Source: Capitulum mitella
Lineage: Eukaryota > Arthropoda > Thecostraca > Pollicipedomorpha > Pollicipedidae
Assembly (NCBI GenBank): GCA_030062745.1
Contig: CP099845.1
Location: 19,322,903-19,386,902 of the forward strand
Direction of reading: 5' to 3'
DNA length: 64,000 nucleotides
Made by a program: the position numbers and the translations under genes
The notes under the pieces: generated by a model
Database searches by the model: none
Told to the model about the DNA's origin: nothing
What the model saw: the letters and a program-made list of their open reading frames with translations, nothing else
Shown here: positions 9,501-55,900 of the stretch, piece after piece
Layout of the letters: every line of letters begins with the position of its first letter
Numbering within the stretch: the stretch's first letter is position 1

Positions 9501-12500
9501 ATGTACCATTTAGTCATTATTTCCGTCCAAATGCTTCTCCTTTCATACATGAGTGCGTGCAGCATGGCGCGCTTCCTGTGCACGTCGCTATAAACCATGA
9601 GCCGCAGTGCCGCGGCTGTTTGTATGTCCAGAGCCACGTTAGTCTTGTGAATGACACGCCTGCTGTGACGCATTTAGTCGGCCGCCGGCTGTCGGTTCAC
9701 TGCTGACCGGACCTCTGCGTGTCCCAGTCAACCCGCTGTCTGTGAGTCAGTCAGCAGGTTACGGGGCCGCCACTGGCCGGACCTCTGCGTGTCCCAGTCA
9801 ACCCGCTGTCTGTGAGTCAATCAGCAGGTTACGGGGCCGCCACTGACCGGACCTCTGCGTGTCCCAGTCAACCCGCTGTCTGTGGGTCAGTCAGCAGGTC
9901 ACGGGGCCGCCACTGACCGGACCTCTGCGCGTCCCAGTTGCCCCGCTGTCCGTGGAGATCCTGGGCTCCGCGCGGGCGCCGCTCGTGGTGGGCCGGACCT
10001 ACAGCCTGGTGTGTCGCAGCCAGGGCTCCCGACCTCCGGCGAACGTCTCCTGGTGGCTGGCCGGCCGGCAGCTTTCCGGCGAATCGACGACGGTATACAG
10101 CAGATAGTTTCGTTTCGCTGCACAATTACTGATGGCTTCAATAATAGGTTTTGACCAAAGCGTCTCGACATCGTGGCCTGTCCGAAAGGGATCATGCTCG
10201 AATACTTTTTTCACAAGTGAAACCAGCCATGCCTGTAATTTTGTTATATGTTCCAAAATGAAATATTAATTTACATACATTAAATTAAGCGTCATTATGT
10301 CCACTCCGAAAACATGCATAAGTTATTTTGAACTGTTTGCACGCTGGGTCATACTGCTGGACGGCGTCCCAGCTCACTGCTTAAGACGCACAGTTTTACA
10401 CCTAAAGTCTTTGCTCCTTGTATCTTCTGATATGAACGTCTACATATTATTGGTACGACTAAACGTCTTTGCTAGAAAGAGTTACGTGTCATTATTAGGC
10501 GTTTCCAAACAAAATTGTCACGACAAAAATGACCCAGTTTCACAAAATTAGCCTAGGGCTTATACTCGTACATGCACTAGACACCGAAAGTGTCATATTA
10601 TTCTCGTTCATCGTGCTGAGGATGGCTTAACATGAGAGCAGCGTGTTTCTTCAAGGGGCTGTTTTGATACAAAAAAATACTATCCAGCTGATTCGAAACA
10701 GTTTCCGGAATAGAGCGTTTTACAAAAATGCGTAACTGTTATGGCTAGTCAACCTCATGAAGGAGCTATCTGTCGTTGACTCAACCATGTCATTTCTCCC
10801 TTTCTAATGTGAACTCGTGTTACTATGCATCACACTGACGTCTGATTTCATTCCGCCAGGTGTCCGAGGAAGGCAACGTCACCATGAGCACGCTGTCGTT
10901 CCAGCCGCTGTCACGTGACCACGGCCAGAAACTGGTGTGCCGGGCGGAGAACGATCACGTGATTAACGGGACCCTTGAAGCCACGCGACTGCTCGACATT
11001 CGATGTAGGATATATCACATACTGAACGGACCCCGACGCGTGATGTTAGGTGCAATTTTGTTCTTTTACATTTACATTTTGTTCTTTACAGTAGTTGTGC
11101 CAGCGGTTTTGTGGGCAGATCTGGGTCTTCGAGGCGTATCTTGCCACGTAACGCAGATGAGTGGGACGTGATATTCAGCAAAAGCTACGAGGGGAGTATC
11201 CTGTTCACGTCTCCTCTTTTATGTGGACATGCTAGATGCGGGAATTTCAGTACATCAGCAGAGGTAACGCTTTCGTGATCTTACGAAACCGATACTGCGC
11301 ACCAGCATCTTCTCACGCTTCACTTATAAACAAAATGGGATCACGGGAAATTAAAACAAGTACCCGAAAATGGGTGCAGAATGTTGATTCTATTTCTATC
11401 CAACTCCTGACTCACTCATAGTCCAAACTGTATTTTATGGCGACTGCGGTATCTGAGTACAGTTTTTGTGATATGTGGAAGCCGAACTTTAGGCCGATAT
11501 TGCCTTTGTCGCGAGCAAACGTTATCTAAATGGGAATGGATGTAGAAATGTGAGTGAATTTCGTCGAGCCTCGTCTGATGTGTGGTGCGTTCACTGAAAG
11601 TCGGGAAGTTTGCAGGATTATTGCAGAATTGCAGCACTGTTTCATATAGCATTAAGCATACAACAAAAACGTTAGGACACAAACAAAATGGACAAACAAA
11701 TATGTTTCCATGACATAATTTCGAACCGTTTAGGCCCTTAAAGTTGAAGGAAATGTGCACTAAAATCATAAAAGCGATATCATTGCAAGTTTCGCTGAAA
11801 TATAAATGGTTGCTGAAAAGGTTACAGGAGTGCTCAAGAAATGCTTTATGGGAAAAATGAAAAGTATGCCACGTCGTTCTCCTTGATGAATACTCAATCG
11901 ATGATATTCTGAAAACATTTCTGACGGGACTTGCTGAAAAGCCATAGAACTTCTACGTTACTCGGAACAAGTCATTGGGTACGCCATGAAAACGCCAGAC
12001 CACTCCGGCTAACATGCACCACGCCCGGCAGACGCCCCATCGGTGAGTCTGAGGCTGGGAAAGGCTCTGGACCCGGCCAACATCAGGCAGGGCACGGACG
12101 TCTACTTCGACTGCAGCATCAGTGCCAACCCGAGCGTCTACAGCGTCGCCTGGCTTCACGACGTGGGTGGTCGTCGAGGCTGGCCGACCTCGTGCCTCGT
12201 CGCGTGCGGCGGTCGCGTTCCGTTAATTGGGAACGCGTCGTTTTTAACGAGACGGACCTGCAGCGACATTGGCTGTGTGACTTGTGGCCGTAGCGGTACT
12301 GTACAACAGCAGTCACGGGTGCAAAACGGTTATGTGCTTGTTTGGCGCGATGGCTCGGTTGGCTCAAAACGTTGGTAGTGTTTCTTCAAGAAAAGCTGTA
12401 GTGAATCATGGGCTCACCACGATAACGATTGGTTATTTAAACTACAGGGGCCTCCAAGACCTTCTGCATTGGTAAGATGACTCTGCTGTCTGTGGCTAAG

Positions 12501-15500
12501 ATGCGGAATTCCTTCGTGTCACTCCGCAGGGTTTTCCAAGATATCCCTTGTACACGACTATGAAGCGAACAGCTTACGACAGTGCCGAACTTTAGGCAAA
12601 TTCAGAATGTGTCACAGATTGTCTCGGCCGCACGATGCTCAGACCCCGACCACAACTACAAAATTGGCCTATTGACAAAGCGACGACAAAGGCAGGGCAA
12701 AGATGACGTGACAGACTGGTTTCTAGTGACACGGACGAACATCCGTGCTGGCATCGGTAAAAGCACCCACGCGCTCTCGACCCTGATTCCAAGTAGCTGC
12801 ACCGAAAGGACTGCCGACGTTCGCGGCACACTCTCACCGCATCCCGTCTGACGACTCCACACTGTCCCCAGGACGCACCGCTGTCATCGTCACCGCCGTC
12901 ACCGTCTGACGACTTTACACTGTCCCCAGGACGCACCGCTGGCTCCGTCACCGCCGTCACCGACTGACGACTCCACACTGTCCCCAGGACGCACCGCTGG
13001 CGCCGTCACCGCCGTCACCGACTCTGCGGCCACCCGCCGGCGACCAGGTCATCATCAACGCGCGCAGTCTGGTCATCAGGAACCTGACCCGGGCGGCGGC
13101 CGGTCGTTATGTCTGCTCTGCCGTGAACCAGGAGGGCAGCGGCGCCAGCCGGCCCGTGCTGCTGACCGTGAAACGTGAGTGGCGACCGTCCCCCGGGGAC
13201 CGTGAGGGTCCGGGCGGCGGGGGCCGCAGTGCCTCTAGAAATCCTGCCGTCATTTATCGTCCTCTTCTCAATGTGACTTGCGTGTGGTTTTATCTGCTTT
13301 AGATTACAAGGATGTTTGTGTGACGTGGGGTTTAAAGCTTCGTTCTTCACGTGTTTCAGTGACACTCCGGCACGGTTATGCGACCTTTTAGTTCCGACGG
13401 AAGCCAAAACATTTCCGACGTTTATGATAACATCAGATTCTACGTCATATGATTATCCAGACCGCTAGGATCTGAAATTGGATCCCGCGTGGTCCCTTTG
13501 TCTTGAATGCGATGCCATCCTCGTGAGCGCATAAGGCATTCCAGTCTTCGGTGGCAAAATCGAGGATCAGCCATGCTGTAGAACCCTGGGAGCTAAATTA
13601 AAAAAAAAACAATGAACCCATCATTAAAGAGCGACTAGGAAAGAGGCCACTGTGCGTCAAGATGTACTTACGAACCAGAAGAAAGAATACATGTTTTATT
13701 TATGTCCTGTAGGCAGGAAGAAGCGGTTTTCACTCATGTCCAAATCAGTGGACATAAAGCGCAGCTTACAGGCTTCGTGGGCCATCAAAGGGGTGCTCCA
13801 AGAAATAAAACCACCAGGTTCATTTCATATTCTTTCTGCGATGTCGACGACCAATGAGCAGCGGCAGTCAGTGTTTTCGACGTAGTTTGGCAGCGGTGAC
13901 ACGACATGGACTGTTTTAGACACGCCGGCGTGTGGCAGAGGCCAGAGGAGACGGTACGCCGTGGCCCTGCACGAAACGGCGCAGGTCAGCTGCCAGGTGG
14001 AGGCTGTGCCTGCCGACGTGACCTACCAATGGCAGTTCAACAGCTCTAAAGAGACTCTCGATCTTCCTCACGCTCTGGTAATTTCTTTTGTGCTATGGTC
14101 GATTTGCTCGCACGAGGTCGCATAAAGAGTAAAGATGTCGATTTTGGCAACCCTCATTGTCCAAGTCCAGTCTGGTCTACGATGTATCATTCCAAATCAG
14201 CAGGGTGAAACCCGTTAATTGTTGGTGTCATGTATATACCGATATGTAGGGCCGATGTCGAACAATGCAAATTGGTTCATTTTCAATTATCAATAAAACG
14301 TCGAGCCCCATTCTGGTGGTGAAACTTTGATAGCGAACGGCCACTTGTTGGCTTTCGCAGAGTACGAGCCGAGGACTGAGCAGCATAGTCTCCTATACGC
14401 CAAAAACAGATATGGACTACGGACAGCTACTGTGTACAGCTGAAAACGAAGTCGGCAAGATGAGTGCCCCTTGTGTCTTCGATATCGTTGTTGCAGGTCG
14501 GTATGATCTGTTTGAAATGACTGTTAACGCAAGATAATAATAATACGGTTATGTTGCTGGACCACATCTCGTGGCATTCTGTTGCATGTTGTGCTGTAAC
14601 ACCACAGTCGCCGTTTCATCAGGCTTGTAACAAACAAGTGTAGAGATGGTGAGATTTACTGTCAGCATCATTCTGCCCTTGAAACTGAACCCACACGTAC
14701 ATTGAGCCCGCACTTCTTCCCCCCGCACCGCTGACCTCGCGCCGCGCGCGACAGGGCCGCCGGAGCCGCCCAGCAACTGCTCGCTGGTGAACCAGACGTC
14801 GCGCTCGCTGGCGGTGGCGTGCGCGTCCGACGCCGGTGGCGAACCGCGCCTCTTCGTGGCCGAGCTGCACGACGCGGCCGGCCGCCGCCTGGTGCGCAAC
14901 CTAACCGCGCCGGAGCCCGTGTTCGCGGTGACGGCGCTGCCGGCCGGCCTCGAGCTGCGGCTGCGGCTGTACGCGGTGAACGGCCGCGGCCGCAGCCGCG
15001 CCGTCGTGCTCGACGGCTTCACGCTGAAGGCGGCCGAGAAGCGGATGCGCGCTGACGCGGGTGGGTGCCGGCGGCGTGCGGTCCGTGGCGGGTCCGTTTC
15101 AGGTGTGACGTGGTCTGCTTATGGACTGTTTGGTGGTGGGCACGGTTTGTGCAGTTCATGGGTTGAATTGGCCACCGCTGCCGCGAAGCGGCGACGGTCC
15201 GGCATGGCGAAATGTCTGGCTATTCGTGGTCCAGCTAATTGATGGCGTCACTGCCGACTCGTGCGACGCCATGCTGGTGAGGCTTCTTTCTGTGGGAGGG
15301 CCATGGTTAATAGATGGAAGCCGCACTTTCGCTATCCTCGGGTCAATTAGGCATCCGTCCGTGCATGATGAGTCACTATGAGAACACAAAACATTTTTCT
15401 TTAAAAGAAAGATTTGCCGATTAAGTGCTTAATTTCGTTGATCTGACACTGTTATTGTGCCCCATTGACGTTAAGTTTCAGGCATTTCAGCTGTACACAC

Positions 15501-40900: not shown

Positions 40901-43900
40901 TCGACTGCCAAGATTTTTTCGCGCCGCAGCCTATCACGGCGACAGTCGCAGGGTGGAACAATCCCACTACTAACCGCACTCGAACCCGGGACCTTTCGGC
41001 CGCAAGGCGAGTACGATAACCACTCCGCCACGCCGCCCCACCCCGCTACCCTGCCGTGATCACCATGCCGATGGTGAAGACGTCGAAGGCGTCTCGCCTC
41101 ACCTGCAATGATCATCATGCAGATGGTGAAGATCTTCTCGTTGTCGGTCTCGGCGGCCACGTTGCCAAAGCCGACGCTGGTCATGCAGGTCATGGTGAAG
41201 TACAGCGACGTCACGTACATGGTCTTGCGGGACGGCCCGTTCACCAGGACCGGCGCCATCGTCTCGTTGGACCAGACGTACGAGTAAGGCGACTGGGTGA
41301 TGTTGGACAGCTTCCACAGCCAGCTGTGGGACAGACGGGTGGCTCAGGTCGAGACGGAAGACGCGCGTCTGGCTGCCAACAGGCGAGGTGGAATTGGTGG
41401 ATCGCCAAAAACGTTCAGTGGTTCAACGAATGCCTGCAATGGATCATTTGTTTAGTTGGGTTTCGGGAGGTTTCATAGGAATTTTCCCGCCCATGACGAA
41501 CCGGCCTTTGACGCCACTTGCCGATGGGGACGAAAAATACAATCTGATCAGCCACATTCAACCCCTGGCCTTGCGACCCGCTGCTGAAAGCCAGTCACCA
41601 GGACATAGCAGAAGCAAACCCAAGGGACTTCGACAGCACCAACAGCCTGCCAAAAATCTTCGCACCAATATCCAACCAGACCATGCTTACATAAACAGCA
41701 TCAACACATTCCACAGCTTTCCCGAAACACAAAGCAATCCTGACTGGCCGGAAATTCCGGCGAACCGGGCCGCATTCTTCGAGTTCCACTGGGCCTCGAA
41801 CCCGCCATCCCTGCCGCTCCGTCGCGTGTCCGACGACCCCACCAGACGTCACAACAGGCGGCGTCACGGTGTCGCCCGCCGCCGTCACGCACCTGTACGT
41901 GACGCCGTTGTCGGCGTCCGAGAGGCCGATGCTGTACCAGATGCAGGCGAGCCAGTGCGCCACCAGCATGTAGAAACAGAGCAGCAGGATGAGCATGGCG
42001 GCGCCGTACTCGAGGTAGCGGTCCAGCTTGCGCACGACCCGGCCCAGCCGCAGCAGGCGGACCACCTTCAGAGCGCTGAACAGGCTGCCGATGCCCTGCG
42101 GCAGCAGAAGGGTCGGGTCAGAGGTCACCTGCTGGGTCAGGTCGTCACGCGCAATGATTCTGAGCGGATTCCCGATATATTATCCAATGCGACGCTGGAA
42201 ACGGCGCTGCGGCTCAATACAGGATGCCATCACCACGCGGCAGCCACACGACGTGGTGAAAGGCACGGGCGTCGACGCTGAGCAGTAGGGATTTAATGGT
42301 ATCGAGCAACGGTCTCATGGAACCCGCGGCGACTTTCAAGGTATCGTCGTTCCCGCTGATATCTGGGGAGCTTTGACTTGACATACGATACCCGTCGCTC
42401 GCGATATTACAGCCATGGTAACGTGATTCTCTGACAACTGAACAACATACTGAAAACACCGTAACGCTCCCCACGTTGCTATTCCTGGTGGACTGTGGCC
42501 ACGCCTGGGATGGCCTGCCACTTGAACATCCAACCGTCCGAATTTTCCCACCTATTTTTGCTAACAGCACTGTCATCGTCAAACGCTGGGCGTGATCACA
42601 GGAAAAAAGCAGCTTGTGGCATCTTTCACTATTCAGAGGATGGCGCTGCGATTTCATTTCAGATTTAATTCTTCAGTCCGCAATATCGGCGAACGGCACG
42701 AAGGAGGCGGCTCGTTCGCATTGCACCCATCCGCCCCTGACAGTTGATTTCCGGCGCAGAGCGCGGCGAGATCGGCGCACCAATCCGAGTGCGGCAAGCG
42801 TGGCGCACCCAATCTCGGCCGGAAAGCCCAGTAGTCGGAGCGCGCGCACTGTTCAATCTGGCCACAAACCCACGCCGCGGCAGTAATGGCCCGCCGCGGC
42901 GGCGAAATTGGCGCAGGAGAGGCGCGGGCCGTGCCGGCGGCGCGGATGCAGATTCTGATTAGGACCGGGATGCCGCGGCGGCCGCGCCCCAAATGGGAAC
43001 TTGAGGGCGCGCTATTTGACGAAATCGAACGGTTCCGGCCCAACCACACGATTCAAAGGGAATATCTCACTGATTCAGTGCTACGCGGTCGCACGCTGTG
43101 CGAAAGCTTTCACCGCCTACAGGATAACGAATTTTCCTTTAGCGACGCATTTGCTCACAGCACAATGCGAATGAATGAATTGTGGTCGCCGTGCAATGGC
43201 GCGCGCAGAGAGCTCGCGCCCATCTCGACGCCCACCAGCTCGTTATGAAACCATTTGAAAATCACCCCGGCCGCCACGGCTAATAAGGCTAATGCTGCGC
43301 GCCGCGTGGGGCCACCTTGACGCCAGCATAATGCCGTTCATGACATGGCGCCGTGCCCGGCCGGGAAGCTAACGCGACTGCCCGCCAATGAACGGGACGA
43401 AACAATGGTTATGTCCCCGGTCCCTTTAAAGGCCGCACTTTGTTGATTATTCGTGCGTGCGTGCGTCCCATATGGCAGAGGCAGTCGCCGCAAGGCACGG
43501 CTGAATGCCGGGTCAGCGGCTGCAGCGGCCTGTGACTGGTGGTTAGTTTAAAAAATGAAGCGCGGAGACAGAATCAGAATGCCAGGAGGGCTCCAGGAGA
43601 GACATTGGTGAGACACATGTTATGATTCTTTGATGCTACGTGACAACAGACTATAACAATTCCCTGATTGCAAGGCAATATGGTTCCAGTTGCATAATCC
43701 TGGTTATATTTATTTCATAGAATAATAATATTAAGAGCATATGGTCAAAACTTGGCATCGCCAAACTTTTTAACATTCAGAAGGCTGTGACTCTGAATCA
43801 AGACCAGCATATGTTTATCGAGGAGTTTCAGTCTGTACTTTTTCTCTGGGAGCAAGAAATGGATTCAAGGTGTGAATAAATCTGAATCCTTAATTCATAA

Positions 43901-46900
43901 TCAGCCGTGAATGATTTTGTTTAGCCTAACCTCAAAACTAGTTCGATGACTCTACAAATTTTGGTCGATCCTGGCGAAGTTTCAAAAACATGCGGAATGT
44001 ATCTTGTTTTACTGATTTTTGATCTTCGTCCTATTTCTGATATTAAGTGGCCCTAAAATTCGGCGGAAGTTGGCCTCAAAGAGTGCCTTAATAGTCCAAG
44101 GCACTTCGAATGGACAAAAAAGCTGAAAATTTGGGAACGCCATACAAAAGTGCTCTCAGAGAGCCAAACGGCCTGGAAAAAGACGAACCAACTGTTGGCT
44201 ATCCCACCAGTATCAGAACAGAACATCTCGGTGAGCTGTTTTGTGGCGACAAGGTGACGGCCACGCGAAAATCGGAATATCCTGTTCATGTCCTAATTTG
44301 GAACGTATTCCGGACACATCAGTTTTGTACAACATACCACGTCAGATTTTCTTTCAAAAGGTTACGACGTACTCGCACACCAGACAAATGCAATCAAACA
44401 GATGTATCGTCAATCGCTTTGCTTAAAACGCCCCGACAGGGGAGCAAAGACGTGGCTGACATTTCTGCCACATTACGACACGTCACATCACTGCGTTTTA
44501 CGCACAACAGCCCACGAGTGTGCAGCGAGTGCATGTACTACGTGATCGCTTCCTACCACACCGGAGCGACAGAGCAAGCCAGCGACGCGCCACCGAGACC
44601 CACCTCGACCAGCGACGTCTCGGGCGAGCCCAGCACCGTCGGGACCTCGCCGCTACCCGGGGCCGGCTGGCCGGCCGGGGGGTCCAGTACCGAGTGGCTC
44701 CGGCCGGCTGCGTCCTGACGGGCGCCCCTGTGTCTGCCGGGCCCGCTCCGGCCTCGGTCCCGGCCGCCGGCCGCCGCGGCTCCATGCAGGCACGCTCGGC
44801 CACACCTCCGTGCCCCGATACAGCAAGCTGCCCGGTCCGGCCCGGCCCGGCTCGCGCCGACCGCTCGGCAGTCGGCGCCGGCGGCCCGCGGTGCGGAGGC
44901 GGCAGCGGCAGCCGGCAGCCAGGCAGAGACAGGCAGTGGTGTGCAGCCGAGCCGAAAGCCACGCCCGCCCGAGCCCCGCGCTCCCGTACTCACGTTTTCG
45001 CCGTTGCCGGCGACGCTGGCGCAGTTACTTACATCTTCGTCGTGGTCAAAGGCGTTGAACACATCGTAGGGGAGGCACGAGAGCAGATCGATTATGAACC
45101 ACGACTTGAGATAGTTCATGCGTATGATCTTGGGGTCGCTGACCACTTCGCCACCGGGGCCCACGAACGTTGTGTGGAAGTTCAGCACGATGTCTATGAA
45201 GAAAATCACGTCCACTATGGAGTCTACCACTAGGAGGCTAACATCCTCCGAGGTCTTGTTCTTGAACGCCACATTGTACGGCACCATGATAGCGGTGTAG
45301 AAGGTGAGGCAGAGTATCACCCAGTCCCAGATGGCTTTGAAGGCACAGTAGTGGAGGAGGATGTGCGGCGGCGTCTTTGGCGCCTCCTGGCGGTACTGAG
45401 GCAGCACATCTGAACTGAGGGACATCATCTGAAAACGAGGCGGCACATCTGAACTGAGGGGCATCATCTGGAAACGAGGCAGCACATCTGAACAGAGGGA
45501 CATCACCCGAAAACGAGGCAGCACATCTGAACTGGGGTCATTATCTGGAAATGATGCAGGACATCTGCACATTATCTGGACTCCAGACTCCACGCCCGAG
45601 CTGAGATAGATCGACACCATCACCACCACCAGGCCGAAGGTAGTATGTCTGAATTGGGGGACATTCTCTGAGCACCGGATAGTACACCTCAGCCTGGGGG
45701 ACCAGGAAACACGGGAGAAAGACTGAATTGAAAAACGCTACCAGACACCAGACATCACACCACATCTGAAGGACATCATCATCATCTGGCTCCACATCAT
45801 TAGGGGACATCAGTTCCAAATCACTGTGGGGCATCATATGGAGACGACAGCAAGAACGTCTGGTCTGTGTTGTGATTGGAATCTTAGGCGGCACATCTGA
45901 ACTGCAAGATTTTCCTCTGACTCCAAGCAGCACACATGACCTAAGAGGCGTCATCCAGAGAGAAAAGAAATAATGTGTTTGAACAGCAAGTCATCGCCTC
46001 AAAAGATCAAACAGGCCTACTGAAAATGATTGAAAAATGGCGAAATCCATCATCCTGTGAAAAGCCATTTTGTCGCGGTAGAAACACAGCATTTGCAACA
46101 AGAGGATGTTTGCTGGGCTGTGATGAACCATCCGGAATCCAAGCTGCTGGCAGTTTTGGGGGAAAGTGATCCAAAATGGGGTCACAAACAATCTCATGGA
46201 CCCCGTGAAAAGTACAGAACAGAAATAGAGATCTGACAGAGGCAAATGCTTACGAAAAACAACTCCGCTGCAATGATCTAAACACGTGAACGTTTCACTG
46301 ACAATGTCCACATTTGAATTCTTTGTCGTAAAACGGGCAAGCTTCCCAAACAACGCGACGTAGGTCCAGCGTCCGAAAACGGTCAGTGCTGTGGGACGAG
46401 AATGGTTAAAACATGAGGACTAAAAACGCAAGACGGTCTAGCCCAGCTGATTGCCCGCTAGCGTCAATGAACGAACCTGGCCAAATGCGTCTAAACATAG
46501 CCAAAATGTCTGGGCTGAACCTCGAGTCATCTCGGCTTCTAAGAGCAGTGTACACTGTTGTACACCCAAAGCGTCTAAAATGTGTATATGCATCGACAAA
46601 GCCATGCTACAAGCTGCTTACAGCAGAAACATATGGCAATTCTCGCTACCACTGCGGGGAAACTGGGAAAATGACCGGCCACAAACATTAAACAGCATGC
46701 GTGAAATAAAGCAGCGTTGTTAAATTGTACTGAAAGAATTACCACGGTTATTTAGGAAGGCTTTGGGCCACGTATCGTTATTCTGTATAATGCAAGACGG
46801 CGTCACAGACTCGTGCTCGATTTCATCGGAGCCAGAATTGACTTCGGGATCGATTCCGTTCCGGCCAGAGTCACAATCGGACTCTATTCCATTGATCAGT

Positions 46901-52900: not shown

Positions 52901-55900
52901 AATAACAGCCAGTCCTTGTCTATCAAATCAACTGACGAGTCTTCACATGATCAGCATGTGAAAGAACACATCGACTTAAAGCTTAAGAATACATGTCACG
53001 GGGTTATCATTTGCGGAAAAACTGGATTTCATACTGGGCAAAAACAAAAAATGAAACACAATAAGCAGATTAAACTCCTTCGTATATAAATACATATATT
53101 CATATATATGAATTTATCATATATACGGAATTTATGAGTAAATTCATAAATTCCGTATGAGCGGAACACAGGGAACTCGGTGGCAGAGACATTAAAAGCG
53201 CACAGAAAGCATAATACAGGTGTAAGATAAGTTACGTAATAACAAAGCATTAGCTCACGTAAACATGGACGGATCAAATGGGCAATGATGCTTGATTTCC
53301 AATAAGCAGATCGCAAGCCTGCAGCTCTGCGCAATAGCAAATGCAATTTAAATGAAGCCACGTCAAACAACAACAAATAAAATCGCATTCAACGGGAAAA
53401 ACGGAACATCGCCTCCTTATTAACCAGCTCAGGCCGACTTTGTCATCAAATTCAGTCTCAAACGTGACGCGGCTGTGAGCTCGTGAGTCGGCTGCCTGCG
53501 CCGGCCCGCGCTGCGACCTGCCCGGGCGTCGTCCTTACGTGAGCAATGTTGGACTGTTTGCCGTTCTCCTTGACGCCGGCGATGTTGGAGGAGAACTGCG
53601 AGGCCAGCACGGTCCGCGAGCGGGTCACGGAGCGCGCCAGCTTCGCGAACTTGGACAGGCTCGCTGCCAACAGCGTCAGGAAAGACGAGTCAGGGTTGCA
53701 CTGCGTTCCCACACATGTGGATCACCGTTGCAGCAAGTGAATATCCTACGCCCAGAAGAACGTCTAGTATGAAACGATCTCATGTAAGATGTTATGAAAG
53801 AACGAACGAACGAACAGAGGCGCAATATACGAAAGAATCATCCAGGTTGGACAAAGACCGGACGTGAGAAACAGTCAACTTAACCGGGAGGTGGGCGCCT
53901 GGAACGTGGAGCATTCGAGAACCAAACGAAACACCCGTGACTTCGATTTCGTTCCAGCGTTATGTAACATGCCTGGCGGGTATCGTGGTGACCCCTTGAC
54001 CAAATAACTCCGTTAAAGATTCGTGCTATCCATGCCACCATTTTCCCTGTCGATGCTATCACCTCATCAAATAATCATGATGTTCAAGACTGACCACATG
54101 CGTCGGTGAAACGCCGGCATACGGTAACGGTTAAAACAGGTAACGAGGCATGATACACATTACCCGTAACAGCTTTTTCGTGTCGGGTACGTTTTGTCAA
54201 ACAGTCGTACACGAATGCAAACAAGAATCTTGTTTAAGCCATGGATGGTGCTGGCGATTAGTTCCGTATTGGTTTGCAAAAGGGATATCAAACTGGAACA
54301 CAGTGATCACGTGGCCTTGCTTCTACTAGACTGGAATAACATTGACAGTTGCTTTGAAAGTCAAATAAACACAAGGATGATCCAGACCTTGCACGAAGGT
54401 GGTGGTGGGGGGGGGGACATATCTCCATCCGTGAAGCCTAACTTATCACCGAGTGGTGATTTCGCCCCACATTTTGGCCAGTTTGATTCGCCATTTTCGA
54501 AAACTGACACCACAAAAAAAAAACATTTCGAACACAAAAACGCCTTTTGTCCCTCCGAAAAGAGGCCATCCGATGGTCCTCTTGGATCCGCCGGTGGATG
54601 AAGACGACTGAAAATCAGTGGAAGCCAAGCTGAAAAACCCGCAGGGAATGACAGAGATGCACTTTCAAGAGTGATAAAGTAGAGGCATACGAGATGTTTC
54701 AGTGATGTATATAGTGCTCATCAGCGGGCTTATCGAATACTTGCAAGACTATTTGGATCTCAAGGAACTCATCCCTGGAAATCGTATTTTTCAAGCGTCA
54801 TCCTTTCCGAACATACACACAAACGCACACATGCACACGCGCACGCACAGGCGCACGCGCACGCGCACGCGTACGAGCACGCACCCACCCACCCACCCCC
54901 TTCCCACACACATACACACGAGCATAGGAATGAGGTGGGTTTCAAATTCCCCTGATTTTTTTACATTAAGAATCCAGTGTTATTTAAAAATATCAAATCT
55001 TAAACTTCATGCAGCCAGTGTTAGTATGACACTGTATTGTTACACACACTGGCTCCAGTGACAACACATGAAAACAATTTCCTCAAACTTCGACGGTGCC
55101 TGTCCCCTCCGCCGTCAGCTAAGCCCAGTTTTCTATGCGTATACACACACCCACATACAGCCTGCGATGAGCACGCTCAGGCTGCACGAAGCATAATTAC
55201 GACCTCCAAAAAATTCCGTGTCTGTCTCTGTCTCTGTCTCTGTCTCTGTCTCTGTCTCTCTGTCTCTGCCCGTCCCTCCGAGTCGCGCTCGCTGACTAAC
55301 CTCGGTTCTCATCGGCCTCTATCGGCTGCTTCAGAGCCGTGATGTCCCGCAGTGTCAGGAGGAACAACACCACCACCTCCTTCTCATTCCTGATCGGCGC
55401 CAGGTGCAGCAGGAGCCACAGGGGAGTCCCTGGAACACAGCGTCAGCGTGCCCCAAGATCCTCGACGTACGATCATGAGTTACATCACGTCGAGTAGTGA
55501 AATGCGTCACGGAGCATCCAGGGGTAGCCCGGGACGGGGGGGATGAAGGGGATGTTCGGACTCGGGCGACATTTCAGAAATGCCCTCAGCTGATCCCAAA
55601 CATGTCGATGGTCAAGTTTTCGGTATTCGTTTTCCTAAGAAGTACCTGAAAGCATCACGAATGTAATGAATCCAGACTACATTCCGACGACACCTATTAA
55701 TGATAACGCAATGTTTAACACACACTGATCTGCACCCGTTCATGTCGTCATACCGTTCCTGACTGTAGAACGCGAGAAAAAAATCGGACAATTGCTTTTA
55801 AACTCCACGAATACCCCGTATTTTTTTAGACGTGCTGTAAGTTAGGAATAAATAAGTACAACAGGCCACAACTTGGCTATCTCAATGCAAAGCACGTGAT

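Follow-up and report, generated by a model that had tools for sequence, protein, structure and literature searches.

A 39-bp minisatellite across the intron 3/exon 4 junction of an eag gene in the barnacle Capitulum mitella

In an eag gene of the barnacle Capitulum mitella the intron 3/exon 4 junction lies in a tandem repeat whose units carry splice acceptors together with codons that read in frame into the exon. This locus raises the question of whether the repeat equips the EAG channel with selected additional modules in front of S1, or whether it is neutral boundary DNA of which the channel gene uses the exon-side unit. All positions given below without a locus number refer to the window, the 64,000-nucleotide stretch of contig C7 analysed here as part of a searched genome of 477 Mb in 16 contigs.

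The eag gene and the repeat at its intron 3/exon 4 junction

Ten stretches on the minus strand of the window, from 61482 to 26620, are colinear with residues 60-722 of a fly EAG query sequence and comprise the PAS, transmembrane and cyclic-nucleotide-binding-homology exons in this order, while no match to residues 1-59 was found in this mapping. When exon 4 was compared with solved channels, the E values for KCNH5 and KCNH1 ranged from 9.9e-69 (KCNH5) to 5e-67, with 3.4e-67 for the best KCNH1, relative to 3.1e-32 for KCNH2. The exon is consequently nearer to the EAG (KCNH1/5-type) subfamily than to ERG and others, and its start pairs without insertion in the four EAG chains aligned. These results bear out the first-pass annotation, which had recognized the gene as eag and had joined 53539 to 45428. 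The features of the junction, all on the minus strand, are the following.

53539-53662, minus strand: eag exon 3, ending in ..KQSNIAH and followed by GTAAGG, phase 0; upstream partner of the junction, with its donor directly after 53539
45033-45428, minus strand: eag exon 4, canonical start 45428, donor GAT followed by GTAAGT; placed by homology, with the copy on contig C9 starting identically
45398-45567, minus strand: 39-bp array of the intron 3/exon 4 junction, a mirage-type minisatellite (TRF score 249)
45429-45467, minus strand: unit U-1, 13 in-frame codons with a TTTCCAG acceptor before 45467
45468-45506, minus strand: unit U-2, AG lost, reading TTTTCGG in the unit and acceptor comparison
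45507-45544, minus strand: unit U-3, 38 nt, CAG retained, out of frame with an early stop (unit comparison and joined frame)
45640-45930, minus strand: degenerate relics of the unit in intron 3, limits approximate

The array consists of 4.4 copies with 85% matches, and its score of 249 compares with a best score of 62 after the 1,169 nt around it had been dinucleotide-shuffled 200 times. In minus-strand orientation the unit consists of ATGATGTCCCTCAGTTCAGATGTGCTGCCTC (nucleotides 1-31 of exon 4) and then GTTTTCAG (8 nucleotides, the end of intron 3). Units start at 45428, which is exon 4 itself, and at 45467, 45506 and 45544. The exon-side end of the array falls within exon 4, and the exon begins in the last unit, the latter as originally proposed. 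The repeat and its single usable upstream acceptor are likewise confirmed. AG is present before 45428, 45467 and 45544 and is absent before 45506. Further upstream, relics of the unit near 45910, 45790 and 45680 scored 33, 27 and 28, respectively, when the maxima of 100 first-order Markov simulations had a 95% point of 22 and a highest value of 30, and the maxima in 14 control stretches of the window were 13-20. These relics suggest an old array that is eroding from its intron end.

Minisatellites of this kind have been described as mirages, which are characterized by units spanning an exon boundary, splice signals in many units, a length that varies among haplotypes or individuals and undisturbed regular splicing. 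Two of these features, the structural ones, are present in the eag array, whose units combine 8 nt of intron end with 31 nt of exon start and mostly retain a splice signal. In lancelets, tandem boundary duplications with splice sites are described in Adh3, the globins BflGb6 and BflGb9 and troponin C (PMC3087553, PMC3902484), and the second of these accounts places similar duplications in PGBD5 beside those of Adh and troponin C (PMC3902484). According to both, splicing is not disturbed. The repeat of BflGb6 resembles the eag array in combining an intron's 3' end with the 5' part of an exon, and the eag unit of 39 bp lies within the span of 10-72 bp given for the Adh3 units. However, the lancelet mirages belong to another phylum and to other genes, whereas the eag repeat, known here from the sequence of one haplotype, is in frame and has an upstream acceptor scoring about as high as the canonical one.

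Splice acceptors, reading frame and a possible longer isoform

The canonical acceptor at 45428 reads TTTTCAG/ATGATGTCC on the minus strand, and exactly 39 nt upstream the acceptor at 45467 reads TTTCCAG/ATGATGCCC. An acceptor matrix that rests on 19 other acceptors from both eag genes gave scores of 9.2 for 45428 and 8.7 for 45467, compared with -0.3 to 14.1 (median 8.9, n=19) for the real eag acceptors under leave-one-out. With a generic matrix, the two sites scored 7.6 and 8.2, respectively, and the real sites 1.7 to 8.4 (median 5.6). The remaining upstream and in-array AGs that are open to the exon (45737, 45722, 45665, 45587 and 45575) scored -0.3 or less with our own matrix, while the generic matrix assigned 4.9 to 45722 and 3.1 to 45737. 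High scores were also obtained for AGs that break the frame, namely 45693 (5.8 own, 8.7 generic) and 45544 (3.8 and 8.7), and in-frame AGs inside exon 4 at 45395, 45386 and 45383 reached 2.8 to 6.4 with the own matrix and -1.5 to 5.5 with the generic one. Together, the well-scoring frame-breaking sites and the AGs within the exon argue against reducing the choice to two sites. Nor are 45428 and 45467 distinguished by branch-point-like motifs: a TGAT is located at -36 of both 45428 and 45467, and no TRAC was found within 60 nt of the one or the other, a motif that occurs at this distance in 13 of the 19 real eag acceptors and in 98 of 290 arbitrary stretches. Judged by sequence alone, either 45428 or 45467 may be used.

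The eag frame is free of stops from 45737 through exon 4. When exon 3 is joined to either 45428 or 45467 the frame stays open, with 13 residues added in the latter case, while joining to 45487 or 45544 leads to a stop after 7 and 13 codons, respectively. The open frame was considered as proof that the upstream units are coding and was rejected, since it follows from the repetition of a stop-free coding unit at a multiple of three and is not independent evidence. Likewise, the idea that several additional modules could be included was discarded: with the AG before 45506 lost and the unit at 45544 reduced to 38 nt, which shifts the frame, the array in this haplotype could provide one extra 13-residue module only. 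Since 45467 is in frame and its acceptor score resembles that of 45428, an EAG isoform with 13 additional residues before S1 is possible. Of the earlier proposal that alternative 3' splice sites insert one or more extra modules, the single module based on a complete in-frame upstream acceptor is thus retained as a possibility, but not the larger number.

The second eag gene and the origin of the array

A second eag gene on contig C9 provides a comparison for the repeat. All ten exons found in this gene match the ten of the C7 gene, so that the two copies share their exon structure on separate chromosomes, and such a pair would fit the whole-genome duplication described in barnacles (PMC11331182). 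Exon 4 of the C9 gene starts as in C7; it is preceded by an ordinary acceptor, and the unit is present only once (CACCTGTTGCAG/ATGATGTCG). A different minisatellite, a 41-bp x 26 array at L036:1704-2785, lies in intron 3 of this gene, about 1 kb from exon 4.

A comparison of exon 4 between the two genes gave 53 silent changes and 4 replacements, corresponding to a dS of 1.3, which is near saturation, and a dN of 0.013, and these values indicate that both eag copies are strongly constrained. Only 2 of 31 nucleotides distinguish U-1 from the exon, and again 2 of 31 distinguish U-2, so that, given the near-saturated dS of exon 4, the array seems to be much more recent than the duplication of the gene. 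All four changes in the first ten codons of U-1 and U-2 are replacements, and both of those in U-1 lead to proline; the probability of this outcome is 0.38 if the changes are neutral and 2.4e-5 at the replacement share of the exon itself. The four changes, each private to one unit, were placed in the upstream units by eye. U-3 was set aside for its indel, and the count stops at codon ten, leaving out the final three codons, for which the exon has no counterpart and in which the units show two differences among themselves, a silent TTT/TTC and a replacing CAG/CGG. The changes in U-1 and U-2 look like those of non-coding DNA, with the reservation that the numbers are small and that a linker could tolerate replacements. 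Both this pattern and the single unit in the C9 gene would count against a conserved function of the array, and the suggestion of a functional module made in the first-pass annotation consequently finds no support.

Taken together, the data make it probable that the array is a neutral exon-boundary minisatellite, a mirage, in which the exon-side unit is under selection and longer transcripts are tolerated variation at most. A founding segment of 39 nt, comprising 8 nt from the end of intron 3 and 31 nt from the start of exon 4, would have undergone tandem duplication in one eag copy after the gene duplication and would have grown to at least four units, or about seven if the relics are counted. 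Decay would since have proceeded at the intron side, while selection on EAG would have kept the exon-side unit. Since every intact unit brings its own polypyrimidine tract and AG, the repeat now supplies the 3' splice site. Splicing at 45428 would then yield the ordinary EAG, and with a predicted strength of 45467 close to that of 45428 a portion of the transcripts may encode a linker longer by 13 residues, a variant that would represent tolerated splicing variation and not a selected module. Two observations weigh against neutrality: in the sole upstream unit usable in frame, the acceptor is intact and no frameshift has occurred, an outcome that selection would produce likewise, and the four changes are few.

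If the tandem acceptors were instead selected, regulated use of 45467 and 45428 would produce two EAG forms that differ in gating and, by 13 residues, in the length of the PAS-S1 linker. Such a regulation would be in line with two in-frame sites scoring 8.7 and 9.2, the equally placed TGAT motifs and the frame kept in U-1, but it agrees poorly with the lack of the array in the C9 gene, the two replacements to proline in U-1, the present unusability of U-2 and U-3 and the undisturbed splicing reported for lancelet mirages (PMC3087553, PMC3902484), and we regard it as quite improbable. An assembly error, either in the repeat or in its number of units, is conceivable because tandem arrays are error-prone; since the units differ by substitutions and one indel, and the relics extend about 350 nt further upstream, unlike a simple duplication error, we consider this explanation very improbable indeed.

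Two further alternatives concern the choice of the acceptor, and each of them could coexist with neutrality. That 45428 alone is spliced and the upstream units are silent intron has a little less than an even chance in our estimate. It would correspond to what is reported for the duplications in lancelet Adh, troponin C, globin and PGBD5 genes (PMC3087553, PMC3902484) and to human CBS 844ins68, in which the intron 7/exon 8 junction is duplicated, giving two nearby splice sites as in eag, and the distal site is strongly favored (the source passage speaks of donor sites; PMC2630376). In contrast to the eag array, 844ins68 is a single duplication with one favored site, and a second CBS repeat, the 31-bp VNTR c.1444_1467+7, spans an exon-intron boundary by its coordinates, but at a donor (PMC2630376). 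Exclusive use of 45428 is at odds with the nearly equal score of 45467 and with the internal tandem repeats of human segmental duplications, which at exon-intron boundaries can give alternative transcripts (PMC2812944); these are similarly minisatellites, with units of about 30 bp, whose boundary position can alter splicing, although they belong to recent primate paralogues and have transcript support. Conversely, 45467 could be the main acceptor, as the first good AG past a branch point higher in the array, and the usual protein would then be 13 residues longer. During scanning, the first suitable AG downstream of the branch point is chosen, a rule that would favor 45467, and a TGAC recognized by eye in U-3 about 70 nt upstream of this site, as well as the lack of a TRAC within 60 nt of 45428 when 13 of 19 eag acceptors have one, would point in the same direction. 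However, the frame-breaking AG at 45487 comes earlier, those at 45693 and 45544 upstream score well (5.8 own and 8.7 generic; 3.8 and 8.7), and TRAC is common by chance (98 of 290 stretches) and also missing within 60 nt of 45467, so that a main role of 45467 seems unlikely.

Boundary duplications in other genes and organisms

The neutral reading of the eag array raises the question of how often exon boundaries are duplicated in this genome. Thirteen loci with 100,500 bases were analyzed, comprising the two eag genes (that of C9 in three pieces) and nine myosin-head/tyrosine-phosphatase stretches (L069-L077), and a 30-nt stretch near an exon edge was scored as recurrent when it was found again within 250 nt with at least 23/30 matches. 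Recurrence was observed for 6 of 136 exon edges and for 24 of 408 non-exon control points (Fisher p 0.67), indicating that junctions are not favored; a preferential birth of minisatellites at splice junctions was rejected on these counts. Two of 20 edges recurred in C7 eag, none of 20 in C9 eag, and 4 of 116 when C7 eag was excluded. The stretches L069-L077 had been picked for exon richness before their repeats were known, while C7 eag was picked by the finding itself. The eag edges are accurate to a few nucleotides, except that the 3' ends of exons 1, 2 and 10 are ends of homology only, and the edges in L069-L077 are ends of family matches, with donor and acceptor calls in L069-L075 made by eye.

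The two eag hits among the six, both in C7, are the exon 4 acceptor and the exon 6 donor:

41050-41136, minus strand: end of C7 eag exon 6 and its donor, duplicated once 52 nt downstream, 25/30 identical

Among 106 edges other than this one and the exon 4 acceptor edge the best match was 20, and no such copy was found after exon 6 of C9 eag. Just past exon 6 of the C7 gene, at 41020-40970 on the minus strand, lies a stretch containing a tRNA-like GGTTCGAGT box, by eye a tRNA-derived SINE.

Outside eag, a donor of a myosin-family gene on C2 is embedded in a 23-bp x 17 array of exon end and donor, GGATACCCGTCCAG/GTGGGCAGC (L069:5317-5713). Donor-side duplications were also found in a second myosin-family gene on C6, where the copy has diverged (L070:430-543), and in a tyrosine-phosphatase-family gene on C4 (L073:308-426), and at a phosphatase-family acceptor on C8 (L075) the repeat overlaps the exon by a few nucleotides only. 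In a separate test none of 72 match ends in 36 other loci recurred, many of these not being true exon ends, and the 16 ends of L069, which bring the number to 88, gave one hit. Arrays with a period of at least 15 make up 989 of the 64,000 bases of the window; in the other loci, a number of which overlap one another, they make up 3,240 of 163,006. Together with the recurrence counts, this array content suggests that boundary duplications are a regular by-product of a repeat-rich genome.

Tandem duplication has also been connected with introns in other organisms. In Drosophila, likewise an arthropod, novel introns are attributed to intron sliding or tandem duplication (PMC2891723); the likeness to eag, a tie between tandem duplication and changed intron positions, is taken from the description in title and abstract, and the title differs in referring to new intron positions. 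By its title, a study of potato concerns intron changes via tandem duplication (PMC4974935). Neither a boundary or intron minisatellite in barnacles nor a junction repeat of this kind in eag was found in the literature searched. As far as this literature extends, the gene, the host group and the hint of frequent junction repeats in barnacles are new, while the kind of repeat has already been described as mirages.

Should boundary minisatellites be as frequent in this genome as the few edges sampled indicate, it would offer, besides lancelets, a further system in which the formation of new splice sites and intron shifts can be followed. The paired eag copies include a built-in control, the C9 gene, which lacks the repeat. 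A more far-reaching view, which we consider an unlikely one, is that several per cent of exon edges in barnacle genomes carry boundary minisatellites as a permanent supply of spare splice sites, that one of them has given this eag gene a comparably used second acceptor, and that differences in repeat number between individuals alter the length of the PAS-S1 linker of the channel. Elsewhere in the window, outside eag, minisatellites are present at 9703-9954 (70-bp x 3.6) and 12844-13020 (58-bp x 3.1).
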